Positions 8,595 through 46,171 of a stretch of 48,162 nt of DNA are shown here, piece by piece. The position numbers and the translations under genes are program-made. How positions within the stretch are numbered: position 1 is the stretch's first letter; each line of letters begins with the position of its first letter. Below the pieces are notes generated by a model. The model was given only the letters and a program-made list of their open reading frames with translations, was not told the origin of the DNA and ran no database searches. Origin of the DNA: a virus. The stretch covers positions 1-48,162 of IMG/VR virus record IMGVR_UViG_3300032238_000527. One strand, given 5' to 3'.

Positions 8595-9658
8595 AGTGTA
8601 TTAAGGGTATTATAAAAATTGTTAATTTTAGATTGAGCAGTGGAGGGCATGTTTGCAATCATCTCTTTATAACTAGTATAGCTCTCAGTTGCTCCTGCAA
8701 CCCCCACTGCTCGAGATGTATCTTGTACATATTTGCACATTGGATATCTACGTTCTCCAAATGCGCTTAACTCTATATTAGCATCTAATAGTTCTCCGAG
8801 CAAGACGGCATCATGTACAGCCATAGAACCGCCTTGTCCGCTGAACGGAGTACTAGCATGGGCCGCATCGCCAATTAGTAGCACATTGTTTTTATTCCAA
8901 GGTGTAGGCATTATAACTTCTTCCGCAGGTGTAAAGTAAACATTTTGATTAAAAGTTAACTCGTCAAGCAAGGGCCTAGCAGGGCCCTCAAACTCTAGAA
9001 ACTTCTCATACATCACAGCTGACCAAATGTTACGTTCATATAAATGTTTTTCTGGAACATGCACAACACCCCATACATACAATTCATCGTCACTTATTGG
9101 CATAATTCCTAATCGTTTGCCTGCACTGAACATTGTAATTTTATCAACTAGATTTTTTGGGCGTTTGTGTGTACTGCGCCAAACTTCAAACTCTGAATAT
9201 ACTGGGGTAACTTCTGGCCAAAATAAATTTCTTACACTAGAGTTTATGCCGTCAGCACCAATTACTAAATCAAAATTATCAAAAGAATAAGAATCAATGG
9301 TTGTGTTTAGTTGTATTTCAACGCCAAGAATTTTTAATTCTTCTGCTAGTACACGATGCATAGCAGATCGTCTAATGCCTAAAATTCTAGGATACACTAC
9401 ATCGGTTATATGATTTCCAATATTGTCCATGTAGACATTTCGTCCATTTGGTATTAAGAATCCAGCTTGTTCAATTTTAGTTAGTAATCCTAATTTGTTG
9501 AAATTATCTAATCCGTTACTATAAACAAAGATACCAGAGCTAATAGGTTCAGAGGTAGATGATTTTTCTATTAAGGTAACAGACCACCCGCGTCTTGCTA
9601 ACACGATCGATGCTGTGCAACCCGCAATGCCTGCGCCTACTACAAGAACTTTCTTCAT
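8591..9658 (-). CDS. FAD-dependent class A monooxygenase
   Basis: A 355-residue flavoprotein of the p-hydroxybenzoate hydroxylase / UbiH / TetX group. It has the dinucleotide-binding GAGIAG near residue 8, the DG motif (VIGADGINSSVR) and the GD motif (LIGDAAHASTPFSGQGG) for the FAD ribityl chain. Such enzymes hydroxylate aromatic rings with NAD(P)H and O2. It heads an operon with the Bug protein and the extradiol dioxygenase, matching a hydroxylate-then-cleave order. Detoxification of an antibiotic or a quinone-type role cannot be excluded. Confidence 0.9.
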   Translation of the reverse strand: MKKVLVVGAGIAGCTASIVLARRGWSVTLIEKSSTSEPISSGIFVYSNGLDNFNKLGLLTKIEQAGFLIPNGRNVYMDNIGNHITDVVYPRILGIRRSAMHRVLAEELKILGVEIQLNTTIDSYSFDNFDLVIGADGINSSVRNLFWPEVTPVYSEFEVWRSTHKRPKNLVDKITMFSAGKRLGIMPISDDELYVWGVVHVPEKHLYERNIWSAVMYEKFLEFEGPARPLLDELTFNQNVYFTPAEEVIMPTPWNKNNVLLIGDAAHASTPFSGQGGSMAVHDAVLLGELLDANIELSAFGERRYPMCKYVQDTSRAVGVAGATESYTSYKEMIANMPSTAQSKINNFYNTLNTL

Positions 9659-9687
9659 CTAATACTTAGTGTAACTACTAGCTGAGT

Positions 9688-9715
9688 TAAAAAAATAGCA
9701 CCCGAAGGTGCTATT
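9688..9715 (-). terminator. Terminator of the tmRNA transcript
   Basis: The minus-strand stem AATAGCACC/GGTGCTATT closes a TTCG loop and runs into a T tract, just after the tmRNA coding piece. Confidence 0.88.
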
Positions 9716-9716
9716 A

Positions 9717-9930
9717 GTTATTTGGGTGACAAGGCTAACTAGACCTCGCAAGTGCTGTTTCTTAGGCAGCTAGGGCAAACTCGATGTCGTTCTTTGCAGA
9801 AACGCCAACGGGAGCTTGCCAGTACTTGAATGTAGATGCTTTTGCATTTACTTGATTTGCTTGATTTACGGTCATCGCCTACCGTGTTGCCGTCTCTACT
9901 ATCTACCCCTGTCGAAACCATGGCAGGCCC
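9717..9930 (-). ncRNA. ssrA: Permuted tmRNA, coding piece
   Basis: The 5' end GGGCCTGCCATGGTTTCGACAG is the tmRNA start. Its first seven bases pair perfectly (one G-U) with CAGGTCC of the acceptor piece at 10086-10150, which lies upstream in the transcript. A hairpin ACGGT/ACCGT (pseudoknot 1 region) follows. A tag frame ending AKNDIEFALAA and TAA (9797-9762) matches the ALAA degradation tag. The resume codon could lie further upstream in the same open frame. The 3' end of this piece is estimated. Gene order acceptor-spacer-coding identifies the two-piece form known in alphaproteobacteria, some betaproteobacteria and cyanobacteria. Confidence 0.88.
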
Positions 9931-10073
9931 ATCATAAAGAAACTTATCTCTGATTTGATCGCATCAAGCACTTGGGTAGTAACATCTTCACTTTGTCCAA
10001 CGATTGGTTCAAATTCGTAGATACAAATTGTTTTTGTTACGCCTTCATGTTCCGCTGTGATATCAATCTTCAT
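9903..10073 (-). CDS. 56-aa ORF inside the tmRNA internal spacer
   Basis: An ATG ORF begins 13 bases after the CCA end of the acceptor piece with the ribosome site AAGGAAG, fills the internal spacer and ends 28 bases inside the coding piece (TAG at 9903-9905). The product (MKIDITAEHEGVTKTICIYE at its N-terminus) is acidic and reads like a real protein through residue about 45; the last residues are tmRNA sequence translated. tmRNA maturation would cut the message, so translation and tmRNA processing should compete. Function unknown. Confidence 0.6.
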   Translation of the reverse strand: MKIDITAEHEGVTKTICIYEFEPIVGQSEDVTTQVLDAIKSEISFFMMGLPWFRQG

Positions 10074-10085
10074 TAAACTTCCTTA

Positions 10086-10150
10086 TGGTGGACCTGGCGG
10101 GAGTCGAACCCGCGTCCAAGAGTCCTTCGCTTTGAAGGGATTACAACAAT
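10086..10150 (-). ncRNA. ssrA: Permuted tmRNA, acceptor piece
   Basis: The minus strand carries a perfect T arm (GCGGG-TTCGACT-CCCGC), the acceptor strand CAGGTCC, discriminator A and encoded CCA, the typical tmRNA 3' end. Upstream is a small hairpin CCTTC/GAAGG. The mature 5' end of this piece cannot be fixed; it begins just after the cold-shock gene stop codon, so the pre-tmRNA may be co-transcribed with that gene. Confidence 0.88.
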
Positions 10151-10154
10151 TCTT

Positions 10155-10358
10155 TTAGGCAGGCTGGATGTTACTAGCCTGTGCGCCTTTCATGCCTTGG
10201 GTTACTTCAAACTTTACACTCTGTCCTTCTTGTAGACTTTTGAAGCCACCTGAATTAATCTGTGAAAAGTGTGCAAATACATCTGCGCCACCATTGTCGG
10301 GAGTAATGAAACCAAAACCTTTGGTATCGTTAAACCACTTTACTTTTCCTGTTATCAT
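10155..10358 (-). CDS. Cold-shock domain protein
   Basis: A 67-residue CspA-type single-strand nucleic-acid chaperone. The RNA-binding motifs KGFGFI and DVFAHF are intact, and the length is that of a single cold-shock domain. It likely melts RNA structure during infection. A promoter-like pair upstream (10505-10533) would give a leader of about 140 bases, as in cspA mRNAs. The tmRNA acceptor piece follows within a few bases. Confidence 0.93.
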
Positions 10359-12318: not shown

Positions 12319-14370
12319 TTATTTTTCGTGAGCAATAAACTCGCCGTTCCAATTGTCTGGTAAGTCTTGTTGCTTCATAAAGTCACAGCGTTCAATCCAA
12401 ATTTTGTAGTATTTGTCCATTTGTCCACCAAAGTTGCCTTTTAGTTTTTTACACATTGCGGCAGCTTCATCAAACTTTTTCTGTTTGTACAAGGCATGCA
12501 TTTCTTCATGCTGTGCTTTGTCTTTGCTATAATCAACACCGCGTGTGCGTAGTGCTGTATAGATTAAGTCTGCTACTGTCTTACCTTTTGGTTGTAAGTT
12601 GTCTAGCATTAGATAGAAGAAGTCGTCTTTAGTTCTATTGTATGTTTCAGCACCAATAATACATAGTACGCCATAGGCCTTACAACGTGCTTCTAAACGT
12701 GCGGCAGTACTAACCATGTCACCTAAGATGTCATAGCTGTGTCTTTCTGTTGAACCCATTTCACCAATAAAGCCAGTACCTGAGTTACAACCCCAACCCA
12801 TTGCGGCTGGTGGTAATCCTTGTGCTTCCATCTGCTTAGTATACTCGTCTACTTTGTCCAACATTTCAAGTCCTACCTTAACGATAGTTCTAGCATGATT
12901 AGGATCTTCAATAGGAGCACCATGTATGTGCATTGACGCATCGCCTACGTATTTGATAACCATACCTTTGTTGTCTAACATTGGCTGGCTGATAGCATCC
13001 ATATAGCCGTTCATGTACTTGCCAAGTCCAGCAACGTCATCGCCATAGTGTTCACCGATAGGTGTAAAGCCACGTAGGTCACTAAACATAACTGATACGT
13101 CTTTACGTACACCACGTTTGATTAAGTCTGGATCTTTTTGCAGTAACTCTACAACTTCTTTAGAGCAGTAGCCAGCAAACTGTTTCTTTATGGCTTGCTT
13201 TTGTAAGAACTCACTTACGAACTTAACACCGTAAGCATGAAGGAGAATAAGAGTAGTACCCACAGCAAGGGCAGTAATGTCAACAAGCCAAAGATTATTC
13301 GTGTAAAGATACTGAGATAAAGGATACAAAATACCAAGAGAGATAACGCCACTAGCAAGTCCAACATAAGTCCACCTTGTTAAAAATAGTAAAGCAATGC
13401 CTGCTACTACTAAGGCAAGAATTTCTGCGCCATCGGCCCAATCTGGACGTTGTATAACAACTCCGTTCATCATGGTGCCTATAACGGCGGCTTGTACATC
13501 ATGAGGCCATATTGCGCCTTTACTTGTTGGTAATGGGTTACCGATACCTGCGGCAGTAGGTCCTACTATAACAATAGCACCTTCTAAATCTTTTGGTAGT
13601 TGAGTTAAACTAAAACTACGATTCTGCTGACTCCAGTCAATCCACACACGACCTAGGTTGTCTGTAGTCACAGGGCCAAACTTAGGAATACGCATCTTTT
13701 CCACCCCGCCCTCAAATAACTTAACTTGGAAAGTTGAGTCACCGGCGGCTACTCGTAGGGTTTCTAAACTCATTGCAGGATACAGTTTACCTTCGACTGT
13801 AACAATTAAAGGCATGCGGCGATTAACACCGTCAACTTCTGGTAGTGTGTTTACAATACCAATACCTGCGGCCGAATTTTCTAGTGCAGGTACGTTAGCG
13901 ATAAGTCCAGGATACTGAACTATTTGATCTAACCATTCTGGTCCTAGTACAGCACTACCTGGATTGCGAGGAGTATTCTTTGTCTTCTGACTAGGAACGC
14001 TTCCTAGTATTACGGGATAATGTTTAAGAGCGGCGGCCAGATCCCTATCCCCACCAGTACGATCACGCTCAGCCATGAGCACGTTAAGCACAACAAGGCC
14101 AGCATTACGACGATAAAGGTCTTCAATAATTTCAGCATAATTAACCCTCGGTAATGGCCACTGGCCGTATTTGTCTAAGGAAGCCTCGTCTATGTTGACC
14201 GTGACAATGTTGTTGAATGTTGGAGCTTTGTTAGTGATTAATGTGTCAAAATAGCGTAGTCTTACGCTTTCAACAAATGTAGGGTCTGCTATACGTATGC
14301 CCACAACTAACGCAAGGGTTAGTAGTGCAGTCCACGGACTTACTAATATTTTTTTGAATTCAATTTTCAT
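12319..14370 (-). CDS. CHASE2-domain class III adenylate cyclase
   Basis: 683 residues: an N-terminal membrane helix, an extracytoplasmic CHASE2 sensor (about 25-310), three membrane helices (about 315-385) and a cyclase domain (about 423-610). Metal-binding D431 and D477, adenine-specifying K473 and D547, and transition-state R558 are present, but the usual Asn is Ser (S554 in GDMVSTAARLE). It should make cAMP in response to a periplasmic signal if active. A lipoprotein gene overlaps its start (ATGA), and the curli-like operon lies upstream on the same strand. Confidence 0.9.
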   Translation of the reverse strand: MKIEFKKILVSPWTALLTLALVVGIRIADPTFVESVRLRYFDTLITNKAPTFNNIVTVNIDEASLDKYGQWPLPRVNYAEIIEDLYRRNAGLVVLNVLMAERDRTGGDRDLAAALKHYPVILGSVPSQKTKNTPRNPGSAVLGPEWLDQIVQYPGLIANVPALENSAAGIGIVNTLPEVDGVNRRMPLIVTVEGKLYPAMSLETLRVAAGDSTFQVKLFEGGVEKMRIPKFGPVTTDNLGRVWIDWSQQNRSFSLTQLPKDLEGAIVIVGPTAAGIGNPLPTSKGAIWPHDVQAAVIGTMMNGVVIQRPDWADGAEILALVVAGIALLFLTRWTYVGLASGVISLGILYPLSQYLYTNNLWLVDITALAVGTTLILLHAYGVKFVSEFLQKQAIKKQFAGYCSKEVVELLQKDPDLIKRGVRKDVSVMFSDLRGFTPIGEHYGDDVAGLGKYMNGYMDAISQPMLDNKGMVIKYVGDASMHIHGAPIEDPNHARTIVKVGLEMLDKVDEYTKQMEAQGLPPAAMGWGCNSGTGFIGEMGSTERHSYDILGDMVSTAARLEARCKAYGVLCIIGAETYNRTKDDFFYLMLDNLQPKGKTVADLIYTALRTRGVDYSKDKAQHEEMHALYKQKKFDEAAAMCKKLKGNFGGQMDKYYKIWIERCDFMKQQDLPDNWNGEFIAHEK

Positions 14371-14510
14371 GATCTAGGAGCCGCGCCGTTTCGAGTAGCA
14401 GGATCCCATGAATGGCAACCTTTGGGCAGTCCGTCTTTATCGCAGAAAGATATTCCCGCGCACCCTGCTAGAGTTAGAATAAGTGATAATATTAAGATGT
14501 TCTTTAGCAT
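14367..14510 (-). CDS. Small lipoprotein (47 aa)
   Basis: A short product with a lipoprotein signal peptide and lipobox LAGC (Cys17), followed by a 30-residue mature part containing two more cysteines. The stop overlaps the cyclase start by ATGA. TAAATA stands four bases before the ATG and no ribosome site is seen. It may tether or sense for the CHASE2 domain; that is inference. Confidence 0.7.
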   Translation of the reverse strand: MLKNILILSLILTLAGCAGISFCDKDGLPKGCHSWDPATRNGAAPRS

Positions 14511-14517
14511 GAAATAT

Positions 14518-14832
14518 TTAGCTGGACTTTGTTCGGGTAGTTTTATGATTAACTAAAGTAGAATTAGATCCGGTACCTAAAATACAAGCAACATCATCGT
14601 TGTATTGTACCATAGTCCAGGTTTTAGTTTTTTCGTTTACCATTAACACATATTTGCTACTAGTATCTTTGCCTACCCAAAACGGCACTTCTTGCCATTC
14701 GGGTCCTGACATTGTTTCAATAACTGTTTTAACATCTGAACAGAGTACAGGTTTCTCGATTTCAATTGGTGGTTGGGCGTAGGCTACGAAGCTGATTAGG
14801 CCTAATAGGAACGCCGATGCTACACTTCGCAT
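14518..14832 (-). CDS. Exported hypothetical protein (104 aa)
   Basis: Signal peptide of about 19 residues ending VAYA-Q, then a small periplasmic domain with two cysteines (CSDVK and ACILG) that could form a disulfide. No family recognised. It sits between the curlin-PA14 gene and the lipoprotein gene. GGAGA lies before the ATG and a TAAATA box at 14851-14856. Confidence 0.65.
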   Translation of the reverse strand: MRSVASAFLLGLISFVAYAQPPIEIEKPVLCSDVKTVIETMSGPEWQEVPFWVGKDTSSKYVLMVNEKTKTWTMVQYNDDVACILGTGSNSTLVNHKTTRTKSS

Positions 14833-14856
14833 AGGCTTCTCCTTGTTAGGTATTTA

Positions 14857-17007
14857 TTACTGTCTAACAGTTGTAGAGCATCCTGCTGGATTTGTACAAC
14901 TCTGTATTATAGTAAATGATTTGCCACCGCTTTGTTGGATGTCTAAACTAGCAGGACCTCCAGCATTGGTTAAATCTATATTGGCTTTATTTGCTGTGTT
15001 ACCGGATTGTGTTGCAAGCACACTATTGCCGTTACCAGTTAGTTTGTTTTCAAGATAATGATTTCCACCACCTTCTTGAACTGCGGTGATAGAGTTGTTG
15101 TTTCCAGTGACAGTATTGAACATTAGATTGTTGCCGTTGTCTTTTTGAGTTACGTTAATATTATTATTACTACCTGATATTATTTTTGTTTCTTGGTAGT
15201 TAGCGCCTGCGGTGTTTGTTTGGCTAGAGGTAACAGAGTTTGAACTTCCTTGCACTAGTGCATTTAAATAGTTTGTGCCGGTTTGAGTAACACCCACTGT
15301 ATGAGAACCAGTGCCACCTAATCCTATATTAGCAGTATTCTTTGCCCCAGATTGCGTAACATTAACTGTATTTTGGTCTCCGCTTATCTGCTCAATATAC
15401 AAATAATTGTTAACTGACTGTGTTGCGTTGTTCCATGTATTATAACGTGTTTGTTGCTCAGTTGTTGCACCGGCAGTGCTTGAACCACCACTAGTGATAG
15501 TTTCTGTTCCTGTACCATTTTGAAGATCAATAGTGCCGCCTTCAATAACAGGTCCTAATGATACAGAAGTTCCAGCTATATCAACTACTGCGCTGTTAGA
15601 ATAAGCTAATCCTGTAGCGTCAACCGTGTTTGTTTCTGTTATCCATCCTGTGGTAAATGCAGAGTTAGGTACGCCAGTTCTGCCTGCACCGTAATCCCAT
15701 TGAAACTTCATTCCGTACCCGCCTAGGTCATTCCAATACCATGCTTCAAGATTATAAGTTTGTCCAGCAACTACGTCTATCCAACCAGATGCTGTATAAC
15801 TAAAAATACTTTGCCATTGGTTAGTTGATTGGTCATTAATGATCGTTTGACTGTTTATTTTTAAAACAAATCCGTCATCACTATTGCTGTAAAAATATAA
15901 TCTATAAACAGTGCCTGCTGGATGTAAGTTAGTTATTGGTGCTGTGATAGTTCCGCTGTATGCTACTAATGTACCTTCTCCCATTCCCGGAAATGATCCG
16001 TTTGTTGGAACATAGATGCCGTTAGTAGTACGTCCACTGGCTACTTGATTATAAGCACCAGGCGACAAGTTAGGCACACGATAAGGTCCTAACCAGTTTT
16101 TGCCACATATTCCAAAAACACAAGTATAAGTGTAAGCATCAAAGTCGTAAACTTTATAGTTTAATCCTTGTAGTACGTTTTGTGTTGTAGTTGTAGTAGA
16201 ACCATTTGCTTCAATAGTAGTTACTCCGTTAGTTGTAACTTTGCTGATAGGAGTAGTTGTTGTAGTTAATACTCCATTTACAATCTTGTTAGTTACTACA
16301 TTAGAAGAAACTCGTGTTTGATATAGAGTTTCAGTTCCGTTGCTACTAGATGTTGTACCATCATTATAAGTTGTGATAGTCACAGGTGTTTGATAAACAG
16401 TAATTGTGTTACCACTTACTACATTTCGTGTTGTGTAAGTTACTGCTGTTCCTGTTACTGTTCTTACAGGTGCGGCAGGTGCTACAGTTTGTCCGGCAGA
16501 TAATGGGGTAGTTGAACCGTTTGTAGCATAGGTGTTAACTTGAGTTACTGTTGGATTCAATGTTCCAGTCCAAGTAACTCCGCTGGTATTAGTAAAGCCC
16601 TGAGTCATGCTGAACAACTGTCCAGTATTATTATCATTACCTACAAAGAAAAAATAGTCAGTACCCATGTTAATAATGTGTCCAGTACCCATAACTGCTT
16701 TTTGTGTGCCATTAGCACTATATTGAATAGCATTCCACGGATTAGTAGCATCTCCTGTTGCGACAAATGCTACATAGTCTCCAGCGGCCCAGGATAGTTG
16801 GCCGTTGTACCAAGGAATTTTATATGCTGTCCCGGGATTCTTACTGTAGATTTGGCAAGTTGCTGTTTGTGTACAGGATTGAACATTCCACTGACTATCA
16901 GCTATTTGTGCTTGTCCAAACTTTAAGTCAGCAAGCCCGGTGGCTTGACTGTATGCGCTAACACATATAGTTAATAAGAATAAAAACTGTAGGAAACGCT
17001 TTATCAT
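14857..17007 (-). CDS. Exported curlin-repeat protein with PA14-like domain
   Basis: 716 residues. A signal peptide (about 1-20, SAYSQ) is followed by a Thr/Ser-rich region, a PA14-like sugar- or surface-binding domain around residues 320-470 (YFYSNSDDGFVLKINSQ, then WYWNDLGGYGMKFQWDY) and about seven curlin-type repeats of the form GxxNxxxxxQxGxxN from about 535 to the end. CsgA-type repeats form amyloid. The start overlaps the FecR gene stop (ATGA). It looks like an amyloid-anchored adhesin exported through the CsgG pore. Confidence 0.78.
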   Translation of the reverse strand: MIKRFLQFLFLLTICVSAYSQATGLADLKFGQAQIADSQWNVQSCTQTATCQIYSKNPGTAYKIPWYNGQLSWAAGDYVAFVATGDATNPWNAIQYSANGTQKAVMGTGHIINMGTDYFFFVGNDNNTGQLFSMTQGFTNTSGVTWTGTLNPTVTQVNTYATNGSTTPLSAGQTVAPAAPVRTVTGTAVTYTTRNVVSGNTITVYQTPVTITTYNDGTTSSSNGTETLYQTRVSSNVVTNKIVNGVLTTTTTPISKVTTNGVTTIEANGSTTTTTQNVLQGLNYKVYDFDAYTYTCVFGICGKNWLGPYRVPNLSPGAYNQVASGRTTNGIYVPTNGSFPGMGEGTLVAYSGTITAPITNLHPAGTVYRLYFYSNSDDGFVLKINSQTIINDQSTNQWQSIFSYTASGWIDVVAGQTYNLEAWYWNDLGGYGMKFQWDYGAGRTGVPNSAFTTGWITETNTVDATGLAYSNSAVVDIAGTSVSLGPVIEGGTIDLQNGTGTETITSGGSSTAGATTEQQTRYNTWNNATQSVNNYLYIEQISGDQNTVNVTQSGAKNTANIGLGGTGSHTVGVTQTGTNYLNALVQGSSNSVTSSQTNTAGANYQETKIISGSNNNINVTQKDNGNNLMFNTVTGNNNSITAVQEGGGNHYLENKLTGNGNSVLATQSGNTANKANIDLTNAGGPASLDIQQSGGKSFTIIQSCTNPAGCSTTVRQ

Positions 17008-18116
17008 TTTTGTACAATAGTAATGATAGTGTTGCCGCCCTGATTAACACGGTTCTTAAACTCTAAACTACCTTGTGTTTGGTAAATTAAAGAGTTTTGT
17101 GTTAATGGAGTAGTTATACATTGTTGGTCGCTGCCGTTGTCTCTACATAAGCTGACAGACATTTCGTCTTTAACAGCAACAATGCCGCTTGATTTTTTGT
17201 AGTCAGGTAATACACTGTCTACTTCGCTTAAAAAGTTTTCGTTTAGTCCGTTTCCAATCATATCAAATATACTAGCAAGGAATTGATTATCTAAAAAGTT
17301 TTGTGCTAAACGGTCAACATACATATTAGCTAGTTGTGCTTCGAGTGCGTTCTCTAACCCTTTTTCTTTTAAGAAGTCAACATCTAAAAAACTTTTAGCG
17401 GCAGACCTTTCACTTCTACCTGTTTCTTTAATTTCTTTTGGAGGACTTAGTAGTAGCATATTGCCAATGGCATCTTCTGATAAGTTTAGTATTACTGGGC
17501 GAGTCGGAGGTTGGGCTCGACTATTAACCTGAGTGGCTTGGAAGGCCTGGTTAAGAATTACAATACCAGCATCTGTTTCAACTGATATTTCTCCAACTTT
17601 ACAATTCTTTTCTATATCGTCTTTGGTTCTACTTTTGTTACGATCATCGGGACAACTTGGAAGTAGTATAACTGTTGATTGTCCTAGTTCGTCAACTGAG
17701 GCAGTAAAATCAGTACCACGAACACTAATAGTAGCAGTAGGCGTATTAAGAGCAACATTTTGCGGGCTGTTCTTAGCAATTTGTCCACTTGCGTAGCGGA
17801 CAGTTCCAAGTGCAATTTTAGCACCTAGTTTACCCGATTTAGATTTAGGATCATATACGAAGTCATCAATTACCAACTTGCTATTTTCATTTACTTGAAC
17901 ACGAGTGTCGTCTTCAAAGGTTATTCCCACTTTCCCCTGTTGGGTTTTGATCGCATCGTTCATTTCCACTCCCGTGCCCTTGGACCCCGTTAGTGTCTGT
18001 TTGTCTCTCTGAATGCTGGGAGGAGTGTTGAGTTGTTCTGTTACTTTGCCTATCGCGGCGTGACTCGACGAGGTACCTAGCAACAGTAAGCATAGTATTG
18101 CTGTCCATATTTTCAT
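17004..18116 (-). CDS. Exported FecR-domain protein
   Basis: The start at 18116 gives a 370-residue protein with a signal peptide (MKIWTAILCLLLLGTSSSHA). A FecR domain spans about residues 30-150, with the characteristic TPTATISVRGTDF. FecR domains are periplasmic sensor or scaffold modules, often near CHASE2 cyclases and surface-polymer genes. Its start overlaps the 57-aa gene by ATGA. The C-terminal half is unassigned, helical and acidic. Confidence 0.85.
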   Translation of the reverse strand: MKIWTAILCLLLLGTSSSHAAIGKVTEQLNTPPSIQRDKQTLTGSKGTGVEMNDAIKTQQGKVGITFEDDTRVQVNENSKLVIDDFVYDPKSKSGKLGAKIALGTVRYASGQIAKNSPQNVALNTPTATISVRGTDFTASVDELGQSTVILLPSCPDDRNKSRTKDDIEKNCKVGEISVETDAGIVILNQAFQATQVNSRAQPPTRPVILNLSEDAIGNMLLLSPPKEIKETGRSERSAAKSFLDVDFLKEKGLENALEAQLANMYVDRLAQNFLDNQFLASIFDMIGNGLNENFLSEVDSVLPDYKKSSGIVAVKDEMSVSLCRDNGSDQQCITTPLTQNSLIYQTQGSLEFKNRVNQGGNTIITIVQK

Positions 18117-18286
18117 CTGTCCCCCCATTCAAACCAACTGTATTTCTGTAATTCTCTCATGATGGCATCACCAGTAGTGTTTTGCCATTTAGCCGCTTGT
18201 TCTACAAAAGAAGACCAGTCACGAACATAGTGTTCATTACCTTGCATCCATGCTTGGTACATCTTTTGTAGTTCGCTTTCAAACAT
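18113..18286 (-). CDS. Hypothetical protein (57 aa)
   Basis: A small soluble, aromatic-rich, probably helical protein without a signal peptide. It fills the gap between the curlin gene and the FecR gene, with the stop/start junction TAATATG on one side and an ATGA overlap on the other, so it is clearly part of the operon. Function unknown. Confidence 0.65.
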   Translation of the reverse strand: MFESELQKMYQAWMQGNEHYVRDWSSFVEQAAKWQNTTGDAIMRELQKYSWFEWGDR

Positions 18287-18287
18287 A

Positions 18288-19247
18288 TTAGTTTTTCTGT
18301 AATATTCTGTATGTGCTGTTACTGCCAGTTATTTTAATATTTGATACGTTATCAACACTACCTTGCTGTGTAATACCAACATCGTTACTTGAACCTGCAA
18401 TATCTAGTTTAGCATATTGTCCAATAGATAGTCCACCGCTTTGTACAATGTTAGTGATATTGTTTGATCCCACTGCTTTATAATCAACAACATTATCATT
18501 AACTCCACTTTGTGATATAGTAGTTTGATTACCTTGACCGTCTAGATCAATCTTAACATAATTACCGTTGGTGCTACCACCGCTCTGAGTTACGCTAGTA
18601 ATATTAGTTGCGCCTCTAGTATCAATATCTACATAGCCTTTGTTACCTGTTAGGTTAAGAGTAGTTAAATTGCCGCCGCCTAATGTTTGATTTACATTTG
18701 CAATTACATTATCTGCGTTAATTGTAGCGTCAATTGAGTTGCCACCACCACCACTCGATCTTACAACTAAACTATTTGTGTTACCTAACATATTCACATT
18801 GGTAATAGCATTACCGCCTAACTGTATAATATCAATTATATTACTGGCACTAACACCATTTCCGTTGTTATTACTGTTGATATATGCAATATTTCCGCCA
18901 ACATCAACTTTATAGTTTAACTCAATGCCTTTGCCAGTAGTCCCAACTGTTGTGTTAAGTCCTAGTGACAGTTTATTATTTGGGCCTGCTTGCTCAATAG
19001 TAACTGTTTGGACATCACCTTTAAGTTTAGCTGGATCTTGAGGATTGGTACTAGCCGTTCCGTTTGTCAGTATTCCATTAACTTTGTTGCCAGCGCCGTC
19101 CTGAGTCATAGTGATAGTGCTGTTATCGCCAGATTGGTCGATATAAATGCTATTATCAACACCCCAGCTTGTGGCTGAAATGCTTAGTAGCATTATAGTG
19201 AGTAATTTTCTCGACAACCCACCAACACCTGTCATTCTTTGTTCCAT
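18288..19247 (-). CDS. Curlin-repeat amyloid subunit (CsgA/CsgB-like)
   Basis: 319 residues: an N-terminal signal sequence (ending SATSWG-V), then curlin-type repeats over the whole mature part, for example NSTITMTQDGAGN and NQTTISQSGVNDN, with the alternating N-x-x-x-x-x-Q-x-G-x-x-N register that stacks into amyloid. It is longer than classical CsgA (about 150). It lies directly downstream of csgG and upstream of the FecR and curlin-PA14 genes. Confidence 0.85.
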   Translation of the reverse strand: MEQRMTGVGGLSRKLLTIMLLSISATSWGVDNSIYIDQSGDNSTITMTQDGAGNKVNGILTNGTASTNPQDPAKLKGDVQTVTIEQAGPNNKLSLGLNTTVGTTGKGIELNYKVDVGGNIAYINSNNNGNGVSASNIIDIIQLGGNAITNVNMLGNTNSLVVRSSGGGGNSIDATINADNVIANVNQTLGGGNLTTLNLTGNKGYVDIDTRGATNITSVTQSGGSTNGNYVKIDLDGQGNQTTISQSGVNDNVVDYKAVGSNNITNIVQSGGLSIGQYAKLDIAGSSNDVGITQQGSVDNVSNIKITGSNSTYRILQKN

Positions 19248-19385
19248 TTTGTTAAAATGATTGCTTATTAGTTTACAATCAAGTTCCTTGGTCTTTAACC
19301 TTATAATAATTATTCGCTACCCTATAAATATTTAATACATACTACCTTTTCATAATGCTCCGATGTTATTTTTTCGTTATCATCA

Positions 19386-19405
19386 GGTGTAAAAAAATTT
19401 ACACC
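19386..19405 (-). terminator. Hairpin downstream of csgG
   Basis: A perfect 8-bp stem GGTGTAAA/TTTACACC lies 19 bases after the csgG stop. No T tract follows in the leftward direction, so it may slow decay or attenuate rather than end transcription. Confidence 0.55.
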
Positions 19406-19423
19406 GTTAAAAAAACAACACCA

Positions 19424-20713
19424 TTACTTCTTATCTTCTAACTTGTTAGACTGTATCCAACCGCCGCGGTCAGTACCGTCTGTTACCATCACTCTCCACC
19501 AACCTTCTGTTCCTGGTTGTCTAATACTCATTACAGTACCTTTGGCAAACCACCACTTCTTGGTACTTGTTTCTTTTTCTTCTGCATATAGGAACGAATT
19601 TTCTTTTAATACTCGTTCACCAAACAGTGTTATAGTTGGCTTAACGCCTGTCTGCATATCTGTTACTGCTAGTTTTTCTTCTTTAGCGGCCTCACTTTTT
19701 CTTTCGACTCTTGCAGGTGCTTGTCTGTCATTGGACTGCTGTGGTGCGGGTGATGGCTGCTCTTGGGCAGGGGCGGATTCTTTGGGGGCTTGTGTCTGAA
19801 CCAACTCATCTTTCTTCTCCTCAGGTTTTCTTATTTCTGACGATATCACTGGAGCAGGAGTAGTTGGTAATACAAGCGGCGCCTGAGTCTTTGGAATAAT
19901 AACCTCAGTCACTGGATCGTGTCTGTAGTCCCAAAGTGCTTTACGCTGACCTTCTTTGATTAACTCTACTACTGCCATTTCAATTGCTGCCTTGACAGCG
20001 TATGTGCCTGGTTCGTTAATGGTTAAGCCTGCTTCTGCTTCAAATGCCTGTGTTCCTTGATCAAAGAACTTTAGTGCTGTTGCTGAGTCTGCTGTACTTA
20101 AGATTGTCTTTTGTACTGTTACTACTGCTAGAACTTTACCTGTGTTTACACTCACTGCTCTAATGCTAACAGTTACAGTATCTTGGCTCCATTGTGTTTG
20201 TTTGCCAATACCAAAAATACGCATGCCAGCACCGCCACTGTTTACAGTAGTGTCATATCCTACAATACCACCTTCGATGATCATGCCAGCGAACTGCATT
20301 GGCATCAAGGGTCTAGCATTGTTACCTTCGTAGGCTTCGCGCATCTGACGAATGATTAATCGCTCTTTAGTTAAGTTGTCAATACCTACACGTTCTACAA
20401 CTTCAAACCATTGTCCTTGCCCTACTCCTTGTAGTGCTTGTATTAAGAATGTTTCAGCACCTTGTGTAACTGCTGAACTTAAACTAGCTACGTTAGCTTG
20501 TGGTCGTCGCTGTCCAGTTTTATCTGCAAAACTATAAACTGCTACGCTAACAGGTTTGCCCGCCGCAGGTGCTGGAATAGTATCAAATTCTTTTTTGACA
20601 CTTTTCATTTGTGTTGTAATACTAGGATCTGTTTCTGTCAAGCCGGTACTTTGCATTACTGCACAACCACTAAGTGTTGAAATAATAGCTAGAGATATTA
20701 GTGTACGTTTCAT
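19424..20713 (-). CDS. csgG: Curli secretion pore CsgG with C-terminal SH3-like domain
   Basis: A 429-residue lipoprotein (lipobox LSGC, Cys17). Residues 45-270 match CsgG: PVSVAVYSFADKTGQRRP, the VVERVGIDNLTKERLIIRQ segment, and later strands lining the pore. Classical CsgG is about 260-280 residues; here a Pro/Gln/Glu-rich linker (about 280-365) leads to an SH3-like domain (about 370-425, WWFAKGTVM, GWWRVMV, GGWI). Such a domain could bind peptidoglycan. CsgG forms a nonameric outer-membrane channel for curlins. It follows csgF with a 3-base gap. Confidence 0.9.
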   Translation of the reverse strand: MKRTLISLAIISTLSGCAVMQSTGLTETDPSITTQMKSVKKEFDTIPAPAAGKPVSVAVYSFADKTGQRRPQANVASLSSAVTQGAETFLIQALQGVGQGQWFEVVERVGIDNLTKERLIIRQMREAYEGNNARPLMPMQFAGMIIEGGIVGYDTTVNSGGAGMRIFGIGKQTQWSQDTVTVSIRAVSVNTGKVLAVVTVQKTILSTADSATALKFFDQGTQAFEAEAGLTINEPGTYAVKAAIEMAVVELIKEGQRKALWDYRHDPVTEVIIPKTQAPLVLPTTPAPVISSEIRKPEEKKDELVQTQAPKESAPAQEQPSPAPQQSNDRQAPARVERKSEAAKEEKLAVTDMQTGVKPTITLFGERVLKENSFLYAEEKETSTKKWWFAKGTVMSIRQPGTEGWWRVMVTDGTDRGGWIQSNKLEDKK

Positions 20714-20716
20714 TTA

Positions 20717-21253
20717 TTAATTCCCCGGCATGTTGAATGATTCTAACGGAACATAGATACATGTTGGTCCACCAGTTACGCCACAAGCTAAATTTTTGTC
20801 TGATCCTGGATCTGTTACTTTTAATAATATACAAGTGCCAGCAGTTGAACCTGTACAATTAAATGCATCACTTACTCTACTCCAAGCAATATTACTTCCT
20901 TGAAATGTAATTGCACCTGTACAAGTAGAGCTTGTTGCCACTGAACAGCTATTATTAGCAAACATAGCAGTTGCTACATTTTGTGATATCTGTGCGTAGA
21001 TGCGTGATTCTAAGTTGTTTAAAAACTTAGCTAAATTTGTGTTTTTTTCATCTGAAGCCACTTTGTCAATTGCCGCTTGAACTTTATCTTCTTGTGCTTT
21101 ACGACGAACTGCTTCTTGATTCTCAATTGTTAAAACGTGAGAACTATATCCCACGCCATTAAACGCAGGGCTTTTAAATTGATAATCTCCCAATGGTGCC
21201 GCATAACATAATGCGGTCATAGAGAATAATACTGTTGTAAGTATTGCCTTCAT
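20717..21253 (-). CDS. csgF: Curli assembly factor CsgF
   Basis: A 178-residue exported protein. The signal peptide ends CYAA; the mature N-terminus YQFKSPAFNG matches the CsgF motif (YxFxxPxFxG) that inserts in the CsgG pore. A helix around residues 45-90 follows, then a C-terminal part with four cysteines not typical of E. coli CsgF. First gene of the curli-like operon; GGGAGCG precedes the ATG. A TATAAT box lies near 21300 without a clear -35. Confidence 0.85.
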   Translation of the reverse strand: MKAILTTVLFSMTALCYAAPLGDYQFKSPAFNGVGYSSHVLTIENQEAVRRKAQEDKVQAAIDKVASDEKNTNLAKFLNNLESRIYAQISQNVATAMFANNSCSVATSSTCTGAITFQGSNIAWSRVSDAFNCTGSTAGTCILLKVTDPGSDKNLACGVTGGPTCIYVPLESFNMPGN

Positions 21254-21342: not shown

Positions 21343-22851
21343 TTATTTAATTTTAAAACTTAATGGTCCAATAGGTAAACGTGTAGCCATATAGTTATTA
21401 TCAGCTTCCATTAAGAATTGACCAGTAAATATTGGTGGATAAACTACAGTGAAATTAGTAAACGCCGCGCCATCTTCCATGTCTTTCAATTTAGTTGTTT
21501 TAACAGTAGTCTTAATTTGAATCATATTACTACGTTCTAACAATGCACGGAATAAGTTACCAGTAGATGGATCTTTATTAGCTTGGTTAGCAATAGTTTT
21601 TGCTAGTGCGGCTAACAAGTGAGAACCTAAGTTATAACTAGGATCTTCAAATTTTGCACCTTTAGCACTAGTTAAGTCATATAGTGTTTGGCTAATAGTG
21701 CCTTGTTCTAATGCCTGTGCTGGCGGTGTTCTATCTTTGCTTTGAATAAGTTTAACAATTAACTTTGCGTCTTCATCAGTAATAAGTTGATAGTGATCAA
21801 CACCTAAAATTAACGGGCCATTGATACCTTTATTAGATCTTGTCCAATAACGATTTTCAGGGTTAGCAACAATTTTTAATAATTTAAAAACTTCAGCGAA
21901 TTTTTTGTTACGTAATACATCAGCAAACTTTTCTGGGTTTTTAGTAACTTCTGCTACTAAGCCTGTAATACTAGCGGCTGCTCCACCTTTCTTATCTTTA
22001 CTACTAATTTTTAGTCTTGATGTTTCATCAAGTTTAATGTAGCTGTCATAAATGTGTTCATTCCCGGCACTTGGGAATAATACTTCTGCCAAATCACTCC
22101 ATGTTAAATCTAATGGCTTTAACAAATATTGTTCAGCTTTTATATAATCACCACCAACAAAGTTTCCAGTGATTAATGCTAACGGAGCGGCAGTTTCTCC
22201 TAAGTCAATTTCTAAACTGCTTTGATATTTGCCCATGCCCGGAGCAGGGGTTGTAGAACCATTAGTTACGTTTTCAAGCATAGTATAAACACCTTCTTTG
22301 AAAACAGTATCTAAGTCACTACGATTCTGTACAACTGATTTAACGCTGTCAATAACACCATCAACACTTAACCAGGTGTCGGATTGTAAAATGTCTGTTG
22401 GTTTTAGTTTAACTGTAGCACGTTGAGCAGTTTTGTTTTGTGCCCCATAACCGAAGTCTTTCTTAAAGTCTGCATTAGTTTGCAGAATAGGAGCGGCACC
22501 TTCTCCTTTTTTCTTGGCTAGTTTAATAAATGCCAAAGGAGTACCAGTAGCTAAGTCTGTCCATACACTAACTAGTGCGGCACGTGAAGTTTCTGGTTTG
22601 CCTGAGTATTGTACATCTTCTGCGGCTACTTCAAACATAGCTAAGAATGCAGTAATCTGTTGATCTAACTCTTCGTATGTTTGATATTCACCTTCTTGGG
22701 GGAATACTTCTGCAGATTGCAGTTTGATTTCTTGGTTATTTTGTGCGTTTTTAAAACGTACTTCTGCGCCTTGCTCTACTTCTTGAGCACGGCGGAATAT
22801 GCCGCCTTGGCTTTCTTTAATAGGTGTTTGTTTAAACTCGAAAAATCGCAT
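21343..22851 (-). CDS. Large hypothetical phage protein, possible capsid-targeted
   Basis: A 502-residue soluble protein without recognised domain. It begins MRFFEF, similar to the T4 capsid-targeting start (MKTYQEF) and to MKVTEF and MHFNEF of other proteins in the window, which suggests packaging in the head. TAAATA lies seven bases before the ATG and no ribosome site is seen. No enzymatic motif was found by eye. Confidence 0.6.
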   Translation of the reverse strand: MRFFEFKQTPIKESQGGIFRRAQEVEQGAEVRFKNAQNNQEIKLQSAEVFPQEGEYQTYEELDQQITAFLAMFEVAAEDVQYSGKPETSRAALVSVWTDLATGTPLAFIKLAKKKGEGAAPILQTNADFKKDFGYGAQNKTAQRATVKLKPTDILQSDTWLSVDGVIDSVKSVVQNRSDLDTVFKEGVYTMLENVTNGSTTPAPGMGKYQSSLEIDLGETAAPLALITGNFVGGDYIKAEQYLLKPLDLTWSDLAEVLFPSAGNEHIYDSYIKLDETSRLKISSKDKKGGAAASITGLVAEVTKNPEKFADVLRNKKFAEVFKLLKIVANPENRYWTRSNKGINGPLILGVDHYQLITDEDAKLIVKLIQSKDRTPPAQALEQGTISQTLYDLTSAKGAKFEDPSYNLGSHLLAALAKTIANQANKDPSTGNLFRALLERSNMIQIKTTVKTTKLKDMEDGAAFTNFTVVYPPIFTGQFLMEADNNYMATRLPIGPLSFKIK

Positions 22852-22861
22852 AGTACAATAT

Positions 22862-23542
22862 TTAGCGAATTTCCGGGAACAAACATTCCTGTATGAATAC
22901 TTTAACGTCTTCTTCAGATAGCCCTAAACTAACCATTACACGCGGTGTATGCGGGTTACATTTCTGATTCTGTGCGTAATAGTTCTGTGCTTCTGTAGTA
23001 TCAACGGCTGTATTGTTAGTTTCCGCTACAGTTTCCAAATAATGCGCTACAGTATCTTTAGCCATGACAATGATTTGGTCTAGTTCTTCATCGCTTTGTA
23101 CGTTACCTGCGGCAACCATACTCTTACTGAATATGTTTGTAGCCCACTCAGGTAGCTCGCGCTCTTTTCGCCAATCTAGCTGAGATACGTAGTCTGCAAA
23201 CCATTCCATCATAGGATGATCGGGATCGCCTGCTTTTGAGTAATCATGAAAGCAACCGGTAATCTTATTCTTACCGGCAATAACGTCAAATCCGTAAATC
23301 GGTGCTGGGTTGTGTGTATGTGGGAAGATGCAACAATGCATCATCCAGAGGCCTTTGGATTCCCTAGCATCCACAACATCAACGTGAGCCCTACGATACA
23401 AATCACTGGTCCAAACACGATTAACCCAACCAGGCTGATTAAAGCGATCCATGCCCGCTTCAAAGACTTCTGTTCCTGTTTCATTGAATTTGCTTTCTAA
23501 TAAATGCTGAACTTCGATCAGCGTGTCCCAGACTTTACTCAT
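22862..23542 (-). CDS. Ferredoxin-dependent bilin reductase (PcyX/PebS-like)
   Basis: A 226-residue member of the bilin reductase family. The core PIYGFDVIAGKNKITG followed by CFHDYS, the WRKERELPEWA segment and the C-terminal NPHTPRVMVSLG...LFPEI are typical; two conserved Asp (in GFDV and FHDY) sit where catalytic acids are known. These enzymes reduce biliverdin with ferredoxin electrons. The ATG at 23542 overlaps the heme oxygenase stop by 8 bases, so the product of one feeds the other. Two- versus four-electron reduction cannot be decided from sequence. Confidence 0.85.
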   Translation of the reverse strand: MSKVWDTLIEVQHLLESKFNETGTEVFEAGMDRFNQPGWVNRVWTSDLYRRAHVDVVDARESKGLWMMHCCIFPHTHNPAPIYGFDVIAGKNKITGCFHDYSKAGDPDHPMMEWFADYVSQLDWRKERELPEWATNIFSKSMVAAGNVQSDEELDQIIVMAKDTVAHYLETVAETNNTAVDTTEAQNYYAQNQKCNPHTPRVMVSLGLSEEDVKVFIQECLFPEIR

Positions 23543-24092
23543 CAACGTACTCTACTAGATCCATCATTTCATCAAAGAACTGTTTTGCATAATCAAAACA
23601 TACTTTAGCTTCGTCAGCTAAGTCATCTGTTAATTTTGTTCTAATAGCAGTTTTAATAGCGTCTGGATCATCACCAAATTGATAATACTTGCCACTGCCC
23701 GGAACACGTTTAGCAATCATTTGTCCGCCGGACAAGTCGCCCATGTGTCGAACATAGATGTGTGCCATTAGCTTTTTAGGATCGTCTTTAATACTGAGAA
23801 TATATTTGATATACTCTTCAGTTACTGTTAATATCTGTGGGTCGCCATCTTCTTCATTCCATAATTCTTGAAAATCTGCTAGAATAGCGGGAGCTCGTCG
23901 GATATCGGGAATACCGTCTAGTAAGCCATGTGGCATAGCACATACTTCTAAAATCTCATACATAGGATGCTGATTTTTTAAGTATGTTGCGTATAGCTTG
24001 GGATTAATTTTGCCTGAAAATAAAATTTTTACAAATGCAGAACGTTCAGCGTTAGTGTGTGCTTCTTTAGTGAGTTCACGTAGATTACTCAT
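23535..24092 (-). CDS. Heme oxygenase
   Basis: A 185-residue all-helical heme oxygenase. The proximal ligand is H12 in LTKEAHTNAE, and the distal helix HMGDLSGGQMIAKRVPG is the family signature. It converts heme to biliverdin, CO and Fe2+. It overlaps clpS upstream (ATGA) and the bilin reductase downstream, forming a heme-to-bilin pathway as seen in some marine phages. Confidence 0.93.
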   Translation of the reverse strand: MSNLRELTKEAHTNAERSAFVKILFSGKINPKLYATYLKNQHPMYEILEVCAMPHGLLDGIPDIRRAPAILADFQELWNEEDGDPQILTVTEEYIKYILSIKDDPKKLMAHIYVRHMGDLSGGQMIAKRVPGSGKYYQFGDDPDAIKTAIRTKLTDDLADEAKVCFDYAKQFFDEMMDLVEYVDE

Positions 24093-24391
24093 TCTTCCTC
24101 CAGTTTAATTTGTAGTGGGAAGCCATTTGTACGTGCTAACTGTGTTGACTCAACTGCTTTTGCTTCGGCGATTTCAAAACTATAAGTTCCGGCAATGCCA
24201 GCGCCAGTTTCATGTACAGTAAGTGTAATATCTCTAGCAGATGCCTCTGTGTGTTTGAAAATTTCAGTTAATAAACTAACAACAAAGTCCATTGGAGTGC
24301 TATCATCGTTTAAGAAAATAACTTTCCAACGCTTGGGTTCAGAAACTGTTACTTTAATCTTTTCGTCAATTTTAACGTCGGTTGTAGGCAT
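24089..24391 (-). CDS. clpS: ATP-dependent Clp protease adaptor ClpS
   Basis: A 100-residue adaptor. The core motifs FLNDDSTPMDFVVSLL and TVHETGAGIAG contain the residues that bind N-end-rule degrons and dock ClpA. The ATG at 24391 is preferred; a longer TTG start would begin within a hairpin. No ClpA/ClpP is visible, so it would redirect the host ClpAP, either toward or away from tagged substrates. Confidence 0.92.
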   Translation of the reverse strand: MPTTDVKIDEKIKVTVSEPKRWKVIFLNDDSTPMDFVVSLLTEIFKHTEASARDITLTVHETGAGIAGTYSFEIAEAKAVESTQLARTNGFPLQIKLEEE

Positions 24392-24413
24392 GGTTGTACT
24401 CTCTTTCAAAGTA

Positions 24414-24431
24414 GGGGGAGTTTCCTCCCCC
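24414..24431 (-). terminator. Strong hairpin between hsp20 and clpS
   Basis: The minus strand has GGGGGAG, a GAAA tetraloop and CTCCCCC: a 7-bp GC stem without a T tract. It probably protects the hsp20 3' end or sets the processing site between hsp20 and clpS. Confidence 0.6.
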
Positions 24432-24445
24432 AATATTATTTACAC

Positions 24446-24874
24446 TTATTTGACTTCAATTCTTCGAGGTTTAAGAGCCTCTGGAATTATAAGCGTTAGT
24501 TTAACATGTAGAATACCGTTTGTCAACTCCACATCACCCACTTCCATGTATTGTGGCAATGTAAATGCTCGTTCAAAATCACGAGCGGCTAAGCCACGAT
24601 GGATGTAAAGATCTGCGTTATCCTCTTTGGCTCGATGTCCTTTGATGATTAGTTGATCTTGATCTACTTCTACACTGATATCCTCTTTGTCAAAACCAGC
24701 TACAGCGATTTCAATCTCGTAGTTGTTCTCGTCATACTTGAGTACGTTGTATGGAGGATAGTTATTGTTTCCATTGAAAGCGCGAGCTTCAATGTTATTA
24801 AAGATTCGGTCGAAACCGATTAGTGCTCTGTTTATTTGTGCTAACGCATTAGCATCAATAGTTCTTAATTGCAT
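24446..24874 (-). CDS. Small heat-shock protein (Hsp20/alpha-crystallin)
   Basis: A 142-residue IbpA-like chaperone. The alpha-crystallin domain spans about residues 40-130, with the conserved AVAGFDKEDISVEV and the GILHVKLTL strand (the A-x-x-x-n-G-v-L motif). It binds unfolding proteins without ATP and hands them to DnaK, encoded just upstream. Hsp20 genes are common in T4-like cyanophages and pelagiphages. Confidence 0.93.
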   Translation of the reverse strand: MQLRTIDANALAQINRALIGFDRIFNNIEARAFNGNNNYPPYNVLKYDENNYEIEIAVAGFDKEDISVEVDQDQLIIKGHRAKEDNADLYIHRGLAARDFERAFTLPQYMEVGDVELTNGILHVKLTLIIPEALKPRRIEVK

Positions 24875-24953: not shown

Positions 24954-26846
24954 TTAAACTTCTTTGAAATCGGCGTCTACTGTTGTTTCGCCTTTTTCGT
25001 TATTTTGTTGACCTTGTTCTTTGGCAGCTTCAGCTTCTTGCTTTTTAAAACCAATTGGCTTTAGTGCTTCGTAGGTCTTAGTCATCGCGGCCTTGACAGC
25101 TTCAACGTCTTCGCCGGCCATTGTTGTTTCGACTTCCTTAATAGCTTCTTCAAGGGCAGTCTTCTCTTCAGGTGTAACTTTATCGCCGTATTCAGCTAGA
25201 TCTTGTCTAATGCTGTGTAGTTGTGATTCTGCTGAGTTACGTGTATCAATTACTTCACGCAACTTCTTATCAGCTTCGGCGTTCTCTTCACCTTCTCTAA
25301 CCATGCGCTGGATTTCGGCGTCAGTAAGTCCCGAACTAGCTTTAATAGTAATGTTCTTTTCTTTACCATTCTTCTTGTCTTTAGCTGTTACTTTTAGAAT
25401 ACCGTTAGCATCAATATCAAATGTAACTTCAACTTGTGCCATGCCACGTGGTGCTGGATCAATACCTTCTAGATTAAATTCACCTAGTAACTTGTTGTAT
25501 TGTACAAGTTCACGTTCGCCCTGGAATACTTTAATAGTAACCGCTGGCTGGTTGTCTTCGGCTGTACTAAATGTTTGATTAGCCTTAGTTGGGATAGTTG
25601 TGTTCTTTGTAATTAACTTAGTCATTACACCGCCAAGTGTTTCAATACCTAATGATAGCGGAGTAACGTCCAACAATAGAACGTCTTTCTTATCACCTGA
25701 AAGAACAGCACCTTGAATAGCCGCACCCGCCGCAACTGCTTCGTCTGGGTTAACATCTTTACGTGGGGCTTTGTTGAAGAATTTTTCAACCGCTTCTTGT
25801 ACTTTTGGCATACGAGTCATACCACCAACAAGGATAACTTCGTCAATATCACTAATACTAACACCTGCATCTTTAATAGCAGTTTCACAAGGCTTAATAC
25901 TACGTTGGATTAGTTCGTCAACAAGTTGTTCCAGTTTAGCACGAGTCAACTTGATGTTCATGTGCTTAGGACCTGTTGCGTCTGCTGTAATGTAAGGTAA
26001 GTTTACATCTGTTTGTGTAGAACTTGACAATTCAATTTTGGCCTTTTCTGCGGCTTCTTTTAGTCGCTGTAGAGCAAGAACGTCTTTGGTTAAGTCAACG
26101 CCACTTTCTTTTAAGAATGTATCAACTAAGAAATCCATAATACGTTGATCGAAATCTTCACCGCCTAGGAATGTGTCACCATTAGTACTTAATACTTCGA
26201 TCTGTTTGTCGCCTTCGACATTCGCAATTTCAATGATTGATACGTCGAATGTACCACCACCAAGATCGTAAACAGCAATTTTCCTATCACGTTTATCAGT
26301 TTTATCAACGCCATAAGCAAGAGCTGCCGCAGTAGGCTCGTTAATAATGCGAAGTACTTCCAAGCCTGCGATTTTTCCAGCATCCTTAGTCGCTTGTCTT
26401 TGGCTGTCGTTAAAGTACGCAGGAACTGTGATAACGGCTTGAGTAACTTCATGTCCTAAATAGTCTTCGGCAGTCTTCTTCATCTTGCGAAGAACTTCTG
26501 CACTAATCTGTGGAGGTGCTAGATCTTTGCCGCCAGCTTTAACCCATGCGTCGCCGTTTTGAGCTTCTTTAATCTCAAATGGCATCAAGTCGATGTCTTT
26601 CTGTACTGCTTCTTCTTTGAACTTACGTCCAATAAGGCGCTTTACAGCATACAGGGTGTTTTTGGGGTTTGTTACTGACTGTCGCTTTGCACTTGCTCCG
26701 ACTAAGATTTCGTCGTTGGCATAAGCGATGATTGATGGTGTAGTACGGGCGCCTTCGCTATTTTCAATAACTTTGGCTGTGCCATTTTCCATAATAGCTA
26801 CACAGCTATTTGTTGTACCTAAGTCGATACCGATGATTTTGCTCAT
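24954..26846 (-). CDS. dnaK: Molecular chaperone DnaK (Hsp70)
   Basis: A full-length 630-residue Hsp70. The ATPase domain has [24 protein letters not shown] and the [13 protein letters not shown] adenosine motif; the linker [20 protein letters not shown] leads to the substrate-binding domain and a lid ending DADFKEV. It is a canonical DnaK, not the shorter HscA. No DnaJ or GrpE is nearby, so it relies on host co-chaperones. AAGGAG precedes the ATG, and a long hairpin lies in the leader. Confidence 0.96.
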
Positions 26847-33397: not shown

Positions 33398-33724
33398 TTA
33401 AACTCGAAATGATTCGCCACAACCGCATTTATCACGTTCGTTTGGATTAATGAATTCAAACCCTTCATTAAGTCCATTTCGAACCCAATCTACAGTTAGT
33501 CCGTCTAGATACGCTAATGCCTTGGCATCTACTAATACTACAAAATCCGGTTGGGCAAAATTAGTTACACCAATCTCGGAGGTGTATTCGTCGACATATT
33601 CTAATGTATAGGCAAGTCCACTACATCCTGTAGTTTTTACGCCTAGCCGTATACCGACACCCTTACCTCTACGTTCAAGTAGTTGCTTGATTTTCTTTTG
33701 AGCTATGTCGGTTACGATAATCAT
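33398..33724 (-). CDS. iscA: Fe-S cluster carrier IscA/ErpA-like
   Basis: 108 residues of the A-type carrier family, with C34 (TTGCSGLAY), C100 and C102 (DKCGCGESF) as cluster ligands. It accepts Fe-S clusters from the scaffold and delivers them to apoproteins. Its start lies inside the iscU 3' end (50-base overlap), so the scaffold and carrier are tightly coupled. Confidence 0.93.
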   Translation of the reverse strand: MIIVTDIAQKKIKQLLERRGKGVGIRLGVKTTGCSGLAYTLEYVDEYTSEIGVTNFAQPDFVVLVDAKALAYLDGLTVDWVRNGLNEGFEFINPNERDKCGCGESFRV

Positions 33725-34076
33725 TTACAGCCGCTTTGATAGCATCTTCCGCAAGTATACTGCAATGAATCTTGACTGGCGGTAGTGCGAGTTCTTCTGC
33801 AATCTCACTATTCTTAATGCTTCCTGCTTGCTCCAGCGTTTTGCCCTTGACCCATTCAGTGACGAGCGAACTGCTAGCGATTGCAGAGCCGCATCCGTAA
33901 GTTTTAAATTTCGCATCTGTGATAATGCCATCTTCTACCTTTATCTGTAGCTTCATTACATCGCCGCAAGCAGGAGCACCAACCATGCCAGTACCAACTG
34001 TAGGATCGTCTTTTTCAAATGATCCTACATTGCGTGGATTTTCATAATGATCAATTACTTTATCTGAGTATGCCAT
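33675..34076 (-). CDS. iscU: Fe-S cluster scaffold IscU
   Basis: 133 residues. Cluster ligands C37 (APACGD), C62 (YGCGSAIASS) and C105 (IHCSILAEDAI) are intact, with D39 and the Hsp70-binding motif LPPVK (98-102). A C-terminal extension of about 15 residues overlaps iscA. No cysteine desulfurase is seen, so host IscS would supply sulfur; LPPVK would recruit HscA or a DnaK. Confidence 0.95.
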   Translation of the reverse strand: MAYSDKVIDHYENPRNVGSFEKDDPTVGTGMVGAPACGDVMKLQIKVEDGIITDAKFKTYGCGSAIASSSLVTEWVKGKTLEQAGSIKNSEIAEELALPPVKIHCSILAEDAIKAAVNDYRNRHSSKENQATT

Positions 34077-45346: not shown

Positions 45347-45347
45347 T

Positions 45348-46130: not shown

Positions 46131-46146
46131 AGAATATTTATTCAAC

Positions 46147-46171
46147 AAAAAAGGACCGCAAGGTCCTTTTT
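46147..46171 (-). terminator. Terminator after the 83-aa gene
   Basis: The minus-strand stem AAAAAGGACC/GGTCCTTTTT closes a TTGC loop and runs into T residues. Confidence 0.85.

Follow-up and report, generated by a model that had tools for sequence, protein, structure and literature searches.

A known-type hemO-pcyX cassette in a T4-like myophage of a probable heterotrophic betaproteobacterium

Marine and freshwater phages of non-photosynthetic hosts carry hemO-pcyA/X-alaS genes whose purpose is described as enigmatic, with both a phytochrome and an iron option under discussion (Wegner et al. 2024, PMC11480375). According to that study, PcyX was until then known only from marine viruses and has Asp55 as a specific catalytic residue, whereas the reductase of freshwater phage CB_2 is without Asp55, is a PcyA and makes phycocyanobilin (PCB). 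Here, we analysed an IMG/VR virus record, linear and 48,162 bases long (the whole of this 48 kb fragment is called the window), that encodes a heme oxygenase (HO) and a ferredoxin-dependent bilin reductase (FDBR). We consider it probable, at about 0.86, that the two genes form a hemO-pcyX auxiliary metabolic cassette of the known type in a T4-like myophage of a heterotrophic betaproteobacterium, taking heme to biliverdin and on to the pink bilin pigment phycoerythrobilin (PEB). An earlier note on this DNA had found the pair surprising in a phage without photosynthesis genes; such phages are already in the literature (Mosig; Wegner et al. 2024, PMC11480375).

The bilin pair lies at the end of a compact gene string on the minus strand, dnaK-hsp20-clpS-ho-fdbr. 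The string comprises DnaK (24954..26846), the HSP20 small heat-shock protein (24446..24874), the ClpS protease adaptor (24089..24433), the 185-aa HO (23535..24092) and the 226-aa FDBR (22862..23542). The stop codon of clpS runs into the start codon of ho through an ATGA overlap, with a GGAGGA Shine-Dalgarno sequence inside clpS. The end of ho shares 8 nt with the start of fdbr, which suggests translational coupling. For the FDBR, the ATG at 23542 is a likelier start than the listed TTG that precedes it at 23545. The HO scored 78 bits against the Pfam family Heme_oxygenase (PF01126; cut-off 23). Its proximal His12 was found in all 147 aligned HO rows covering that position, and the glycine pair of the distal-helix GDxxGGQ motif (GDLSGGQ in the window) in 153 of 153. 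By family score, proximal His and distal helix, the protein has the features of a canonical heme oxygenase.

Other genes of the window were also noted. Just downstream of the reductase gene, a 502-aa protein (21343-22851) had no Pfam, PHROG or named-phage match and occurs in a minority of relatives at 28-59% identity. Further downstream (12319-21253) lie csgF, csgG, a curlin-repeat gene, FecR, a second large repeat protein and an adenylate cyclase. A pair that is unusual for a phage lies at 45107-46148 and consists of an acyl carrier protein-like ORF and, after it, a 266-aa protein that has no match in NCBIfam.

To place the FDBR, we compared its sequence, predicted fold and catalytic residues with those of known bilin reductases. 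The protein scored 51.3 bits against Pfam Fe_bilin_red (PF05996; cut-off 31). Its best phmmer match in the PDB was PcyX 5OWG (E 3.1e-70; 50% identity), followed at a distance by Synechocystis PcyA (4e-13), and PebS gave no sequence match in the same search. The AlphaFold model (pLDDT 91.5) was likewise closest to 5OWG, with a Z of 25.8 and an rmsd of 1.0 A over 177 residues; PcyA gave a Z of 24.6 and an rmsd of 2.5 A, Z values too close to separate the two enzymes on their own, which sequence and rmsd do. The PebS fold scored a Z of 18.9, and PebS sequences were absent from the tree. In that tree, the FDBR fell inside a clade with 100/98 support together with 5OWG and the Mosig protein, which confirms the ho-pcyX side of the resemblance to the marine ho-pcyX/pebS type pointed out in the earlier note. 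Alphaproteobacterial PcyA sequences branched outside this clade and cyanobacterial PcyA far off, an order consistent with the AX clade in the literature (PMC10151467). Asp55, His69 and Asp86, all present in the FDBR, do not vary among 160 phage relatives, of which 79 are window-like and 81 of the marine type, whereas the PcyA sequences compared have Glu at position 55. Collectively, sequence, tree, fold and catalytic residues identify the FDBR as a PcyX and not a cyanobacterial PcyA. Membership of the PcyX clade and these three residues suggest that its product from biliverdin should be PEB.

A scan of viral contigs returned 382 FDBR relatives, and the best 80 of these yielded 79 window-like loci on contigs of up to 280 kb. 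In all 79 of these IMG/VR loci the HO gene lies upstream of the reductase gene, in one case across a 1.5 kb gap, and 8 nt is the commonest overlap. This agrees with the earlier note, which had called a heme oxygenase and bilin reductase operon at 22862-24092. ClpS was found in 76 of the 79 loci and DnaK and HSP20 in 74; some of the remaining loci are no more than short fragments. Since the arrangement is common to 79 viral loci, contamination of the record with host DNA was ruled out. Pairwise dN/dS was 0.080 for the reductase and 0.124 for the HO, with synonymous sites near saturation in many pairs; on this measure the pair is under purifying selection, which indicates use and not purpose. 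Identity to the window proteins was 77-88% for the reductase and 40-76% for the HO. The HOs fall into two types, about 45% identical to each other, yet the partner reductases of both types resemble the window enzyme to about the same degree. Mapping HO type took 10 changes on the reductase tree, a single change on the HO tree and 4-6 on the hsp20, dnaK and clpS trees, counts that are soft because the trees were quick ones. This suggests that HO and reductase have probably been re-paired repeatedly by recombination.

Among bacterial genomes, a scan with the window FDBR protein alone found no relative. A profile recovered alphaproteobacterial and cyanobacterial PcyA and, in addition, four MAG contigs. 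These contigs (L165, L166, L167 and L168; binned as Halobacteroidaceae, Pirellulales, Neomarinimicrobiota and Rickettsiales) carry a phage-type hsp20-clpS-ho string and a PcyX-like gene, which is partial in L168. Judged by this context, they seem to be phage contigs that contaminate the bins, and the bacterial-genome scans thus gave no clear cellular PcyX.

Light-harvesting partners were sought in the window and in 17 larger relatives; the window is a fragment, and absence from 48 kb alone would prove little. Neither the photosystem reaction-centre family Photo_RC nor the phytochrome family PHY had a match in any of these sequences, and the Phycobilisome family had none over its cut-off. Phycobilisome matches in two of the relatives (16.5-16.9 bits, under cut-off, in frames of 2,300-3,100 aa) were taken as chance. 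The earlier note's statement that photosystem genes are missing thus holds for the window and the 17 larger relatives. These absences, like the gene identities, PcyX clade, catalytic residues, overlap, conservation and purifying selection, were read from the sequences themselves.

Judging from a tmRNA, Burkholderiales-like genes and the curli-cyclase block, the host is probably a heterotrophic, non-photosynthetic betaproteobacterium; its order is probably Burkholderiales. The window encodes a permuted tmRNA (9671..10190, minus strand) that scored 112.7 bits with the betaproteobacterial Rfam model, and a beta-type tmRNA was over the cut-off in 16 of 18 window-like records. The same model gave 50.7 bits for Mosig, 25 for Melnitz and 56.7 for an alphaproteobacterium. 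The tmRNA class is an imperfect host marker, since Melnitz infects the methylotroph OM43 and carries a tmRNA of the alphaproteobacterial type (PMC9004378). A draw of 200 genomes from the phylum gave no beta-type match over the cut-off, so the tmRNA search could not narrow the host. The best plasmid matches of the window's TctC and AhpC are in Cupriavidus. TctC, a tricarboxylate-receptor protein whose nearest plasmid relatives are from Burkholderiales, belongs to a host-like trio (6899-9658) with a glyoxalase-like protein and an FAD-binding oxidoreductase. AhpC forms a peroxide-defence pair with AhpD (5020-6065) and is 68% identical to the Cupriavidus plasmid protein. These features agree with the signs of a heterotrophic proteobacterial host reported earlier. 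A cyanobacterial host and a placement with cyanobacterial PcyA were also looked for, using the tree, the tmRNA and the protein families, and neither was found.

Judging from the IMG sample numbers, the window-like contigs probably come from fresh water. Basic proteins by predicted pI made up 26% in window-like loci, 6% in marine-type loci and 24% in marine Melnitz, and because Melnitz lies so near the window-like value, pI was rejected as an indicator of habitat. Heme, bilin and curli genes all go unmentioned in a 2025 paper on Limnohabitans phages.

In the proposed pathway, HO would cleave the heme of the host, yielding biliverdin IXalpha, CO and Fe2+, and PcyX would reduce biliverdin to 15,16-dihydrobiliverdin and then to PEB in two two-electron steps. 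This chemistry, HO followed by a four-electron PcyX reduction, is well supported by homology. The electrons would come from host ferredoxin, since no ferredoxin was found in the phages examined (a search for the 2Fe-2S family Fer2, made in the 17 larger relatives, gave no match). A single gene string would probably yield both enzymes along with DnaK, HSP20 and ClpS. In this reading we infer the host, the origin of the ferredoxin, the joint expression and PEB as the product. As for purpose, the selected output is somewhat more likely to be the reduced bilin itself, acting in redox or photoprotection or interfering with host bilin or heme signalling, than the release of iron. The position of the pair next to chaperone and protease-adaptor genes is no more than a hint at such a role.

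Fe2+ is by definition a product of HO, and the pair might instead strip iron from host heme for the Fe-S proteins IscU and IscA and the diiron ribonucleotide reductase NrdB, with PcyX merely clearing biliverdin. All three proteins are encoded in the window, and IscU and IscA recur upstream in many relatives; iron supply has also been proposed for the marine cassette (PMC11480375). However, the IscU scaffold (33675..34076, minus strand) and the IscA-type carrier (33398..33724, minus strand) lie about 9 kb from the ho-fdbr pair in a different gene string, and a four-electron reductase is not needed to free iron, yet it is the better conserved partner. In addition, the 5-aminolevulinate synthase gene alaS, which is not in the 48 kb window, is present in 7 of the 17 large relatives and would push iron-using heme synthesis. 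A net gain of iron is doubtful in these phages because synthesis and breakdown of heme would be pushed together. The 10 relatives in which alaS is missing may be fragments, or heme catabolism may stand alone there. The phage synthases scored 561-571 bits in large relatives (L029, L013, L019, L042 and L017) and are not adjacent to ho-pcyX. Of the earlier suggestion that iron release serves iscU and iscA, the presence of these genes stands, while their distance and the alaS gene weaken the reading. We regard iron supply as possible but unlikely.

Bacteriophytochromes normally use biliverdin, and PEB is without the C15=C16 double bond, the one isomerised in phytochromes. A role in light signalling, in which PEB would be taken up by bacteriophytochromes or bilin-binding globins of the host and alter or lock their response, is improbable, since PEB cannot photoisomerise at C15, biliverdin is already the normal chromophore, and no PHY or phycobilisome-family protein was over the cut-off in the window or the 17 relatives. 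PCB from the CB_2 PcyA does assemble a working phytochrome (PMC11480375), and bilin-binding globins have been described in heterotrophs that carry pre-PcyA (PMC10151467). Because of the missing double bond, a phytochrome role fits PcyA and PCB better than PcyX and PEB, and the earlier suggestion of a bilin for host phytochromes is doubtful for PEB. It is a long shot that PEB, made by a common lineage of betaproteobacterial phages to control its host, is caught by host or unrecognised phage bilin-binding proteins and so locks light or redox signalling during infection, with alaS driving the path from succinyl-CoA. On that view, the higher conservation of PcyX than of HO, despite repeated HO exchange, would point to selection for the reduced bilin. 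Finally, that the FDBR is really a PcyA making PCB is very improbable: CB_2 provides a freshwater precedent and the only NCBIfam match of the FDBR is the PcyA equivalog model, but its 77.8 bits do not reach the cut-off of 206, Asp55 is present in all 160 relatives and the tree groups the protein with PcyX.

The preferred reading, a PEB-making hemO-pcyX cassette, would mean that the pair is not confined to pelagiphages and has been fixed in another large phage lineage, probably with betaproteobacterial hosts. This lineage offers many natural variants for asking why phages of heterotrophs reduce biliverdin. It also leads to the prediction of an Asp55-type, PEB-making enzyme that probably occurs in non-marine habitats, from which the one phage enzyme characterised to date makes PCB.

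Among the closest known systems is the marine hemO-pcyX type (PcyX_EBK42635, PDB 5OWG; Pelagibacter phage Mosig EXVC030M), which has the same order of ho then pcyX with a short overlap, 47-50% protein identity to the window and the same catalytic residues. Mosig, like the window lineage, is a T4-like myophage of a heterotroph, in its case Pelagibacter HTCC1062. In contrast, the window FDBR belongs to a separate subclade, its pair follows dnaK-hsp20-clpS whereas the marine pair sits with 2OG-oxygenase genes, and the beta-type tmRNA is over the cut-off in the window and below it in Mosig. CB_2, compared here by its published description, is also a phage of a non-photosynthetic proteobacterium with ho and reductase together, and has alaS elsewhere in its genome, as do 7 of the 17 window relatives, but its reductase is without the Asp55 of the window enzyme. 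Methylophilales phage Melnitz (host OM43) shares the order csgF-csgG-curlin-fecR-curlin-adenylate cyclase with the window and has a tmRNA gene described as two-piece, like the permuted one of the window; unlike the window, no ho or pcyX was found in it. PebS of cyanophage P-SSM2 and PcyA of P-SSM4 have the same fold as the FDBR but come from phages of photosynthetic hosts and are distant in sequence (26% identity for P-SSM4). The kind of cassette is not new, because it fits hemO-pcyX(-alaS) genes already described for phages that infect heterotrophs (Mosig; Wegner et al. 2024). What is new is an abundant lineage other than pelagiphages, probably freshwater, with an Asp55-type PcyX, together with the dnaK-hsp20-clpS chaperone setting of the pair and the probable repeated re-pairing of HO and reductase.
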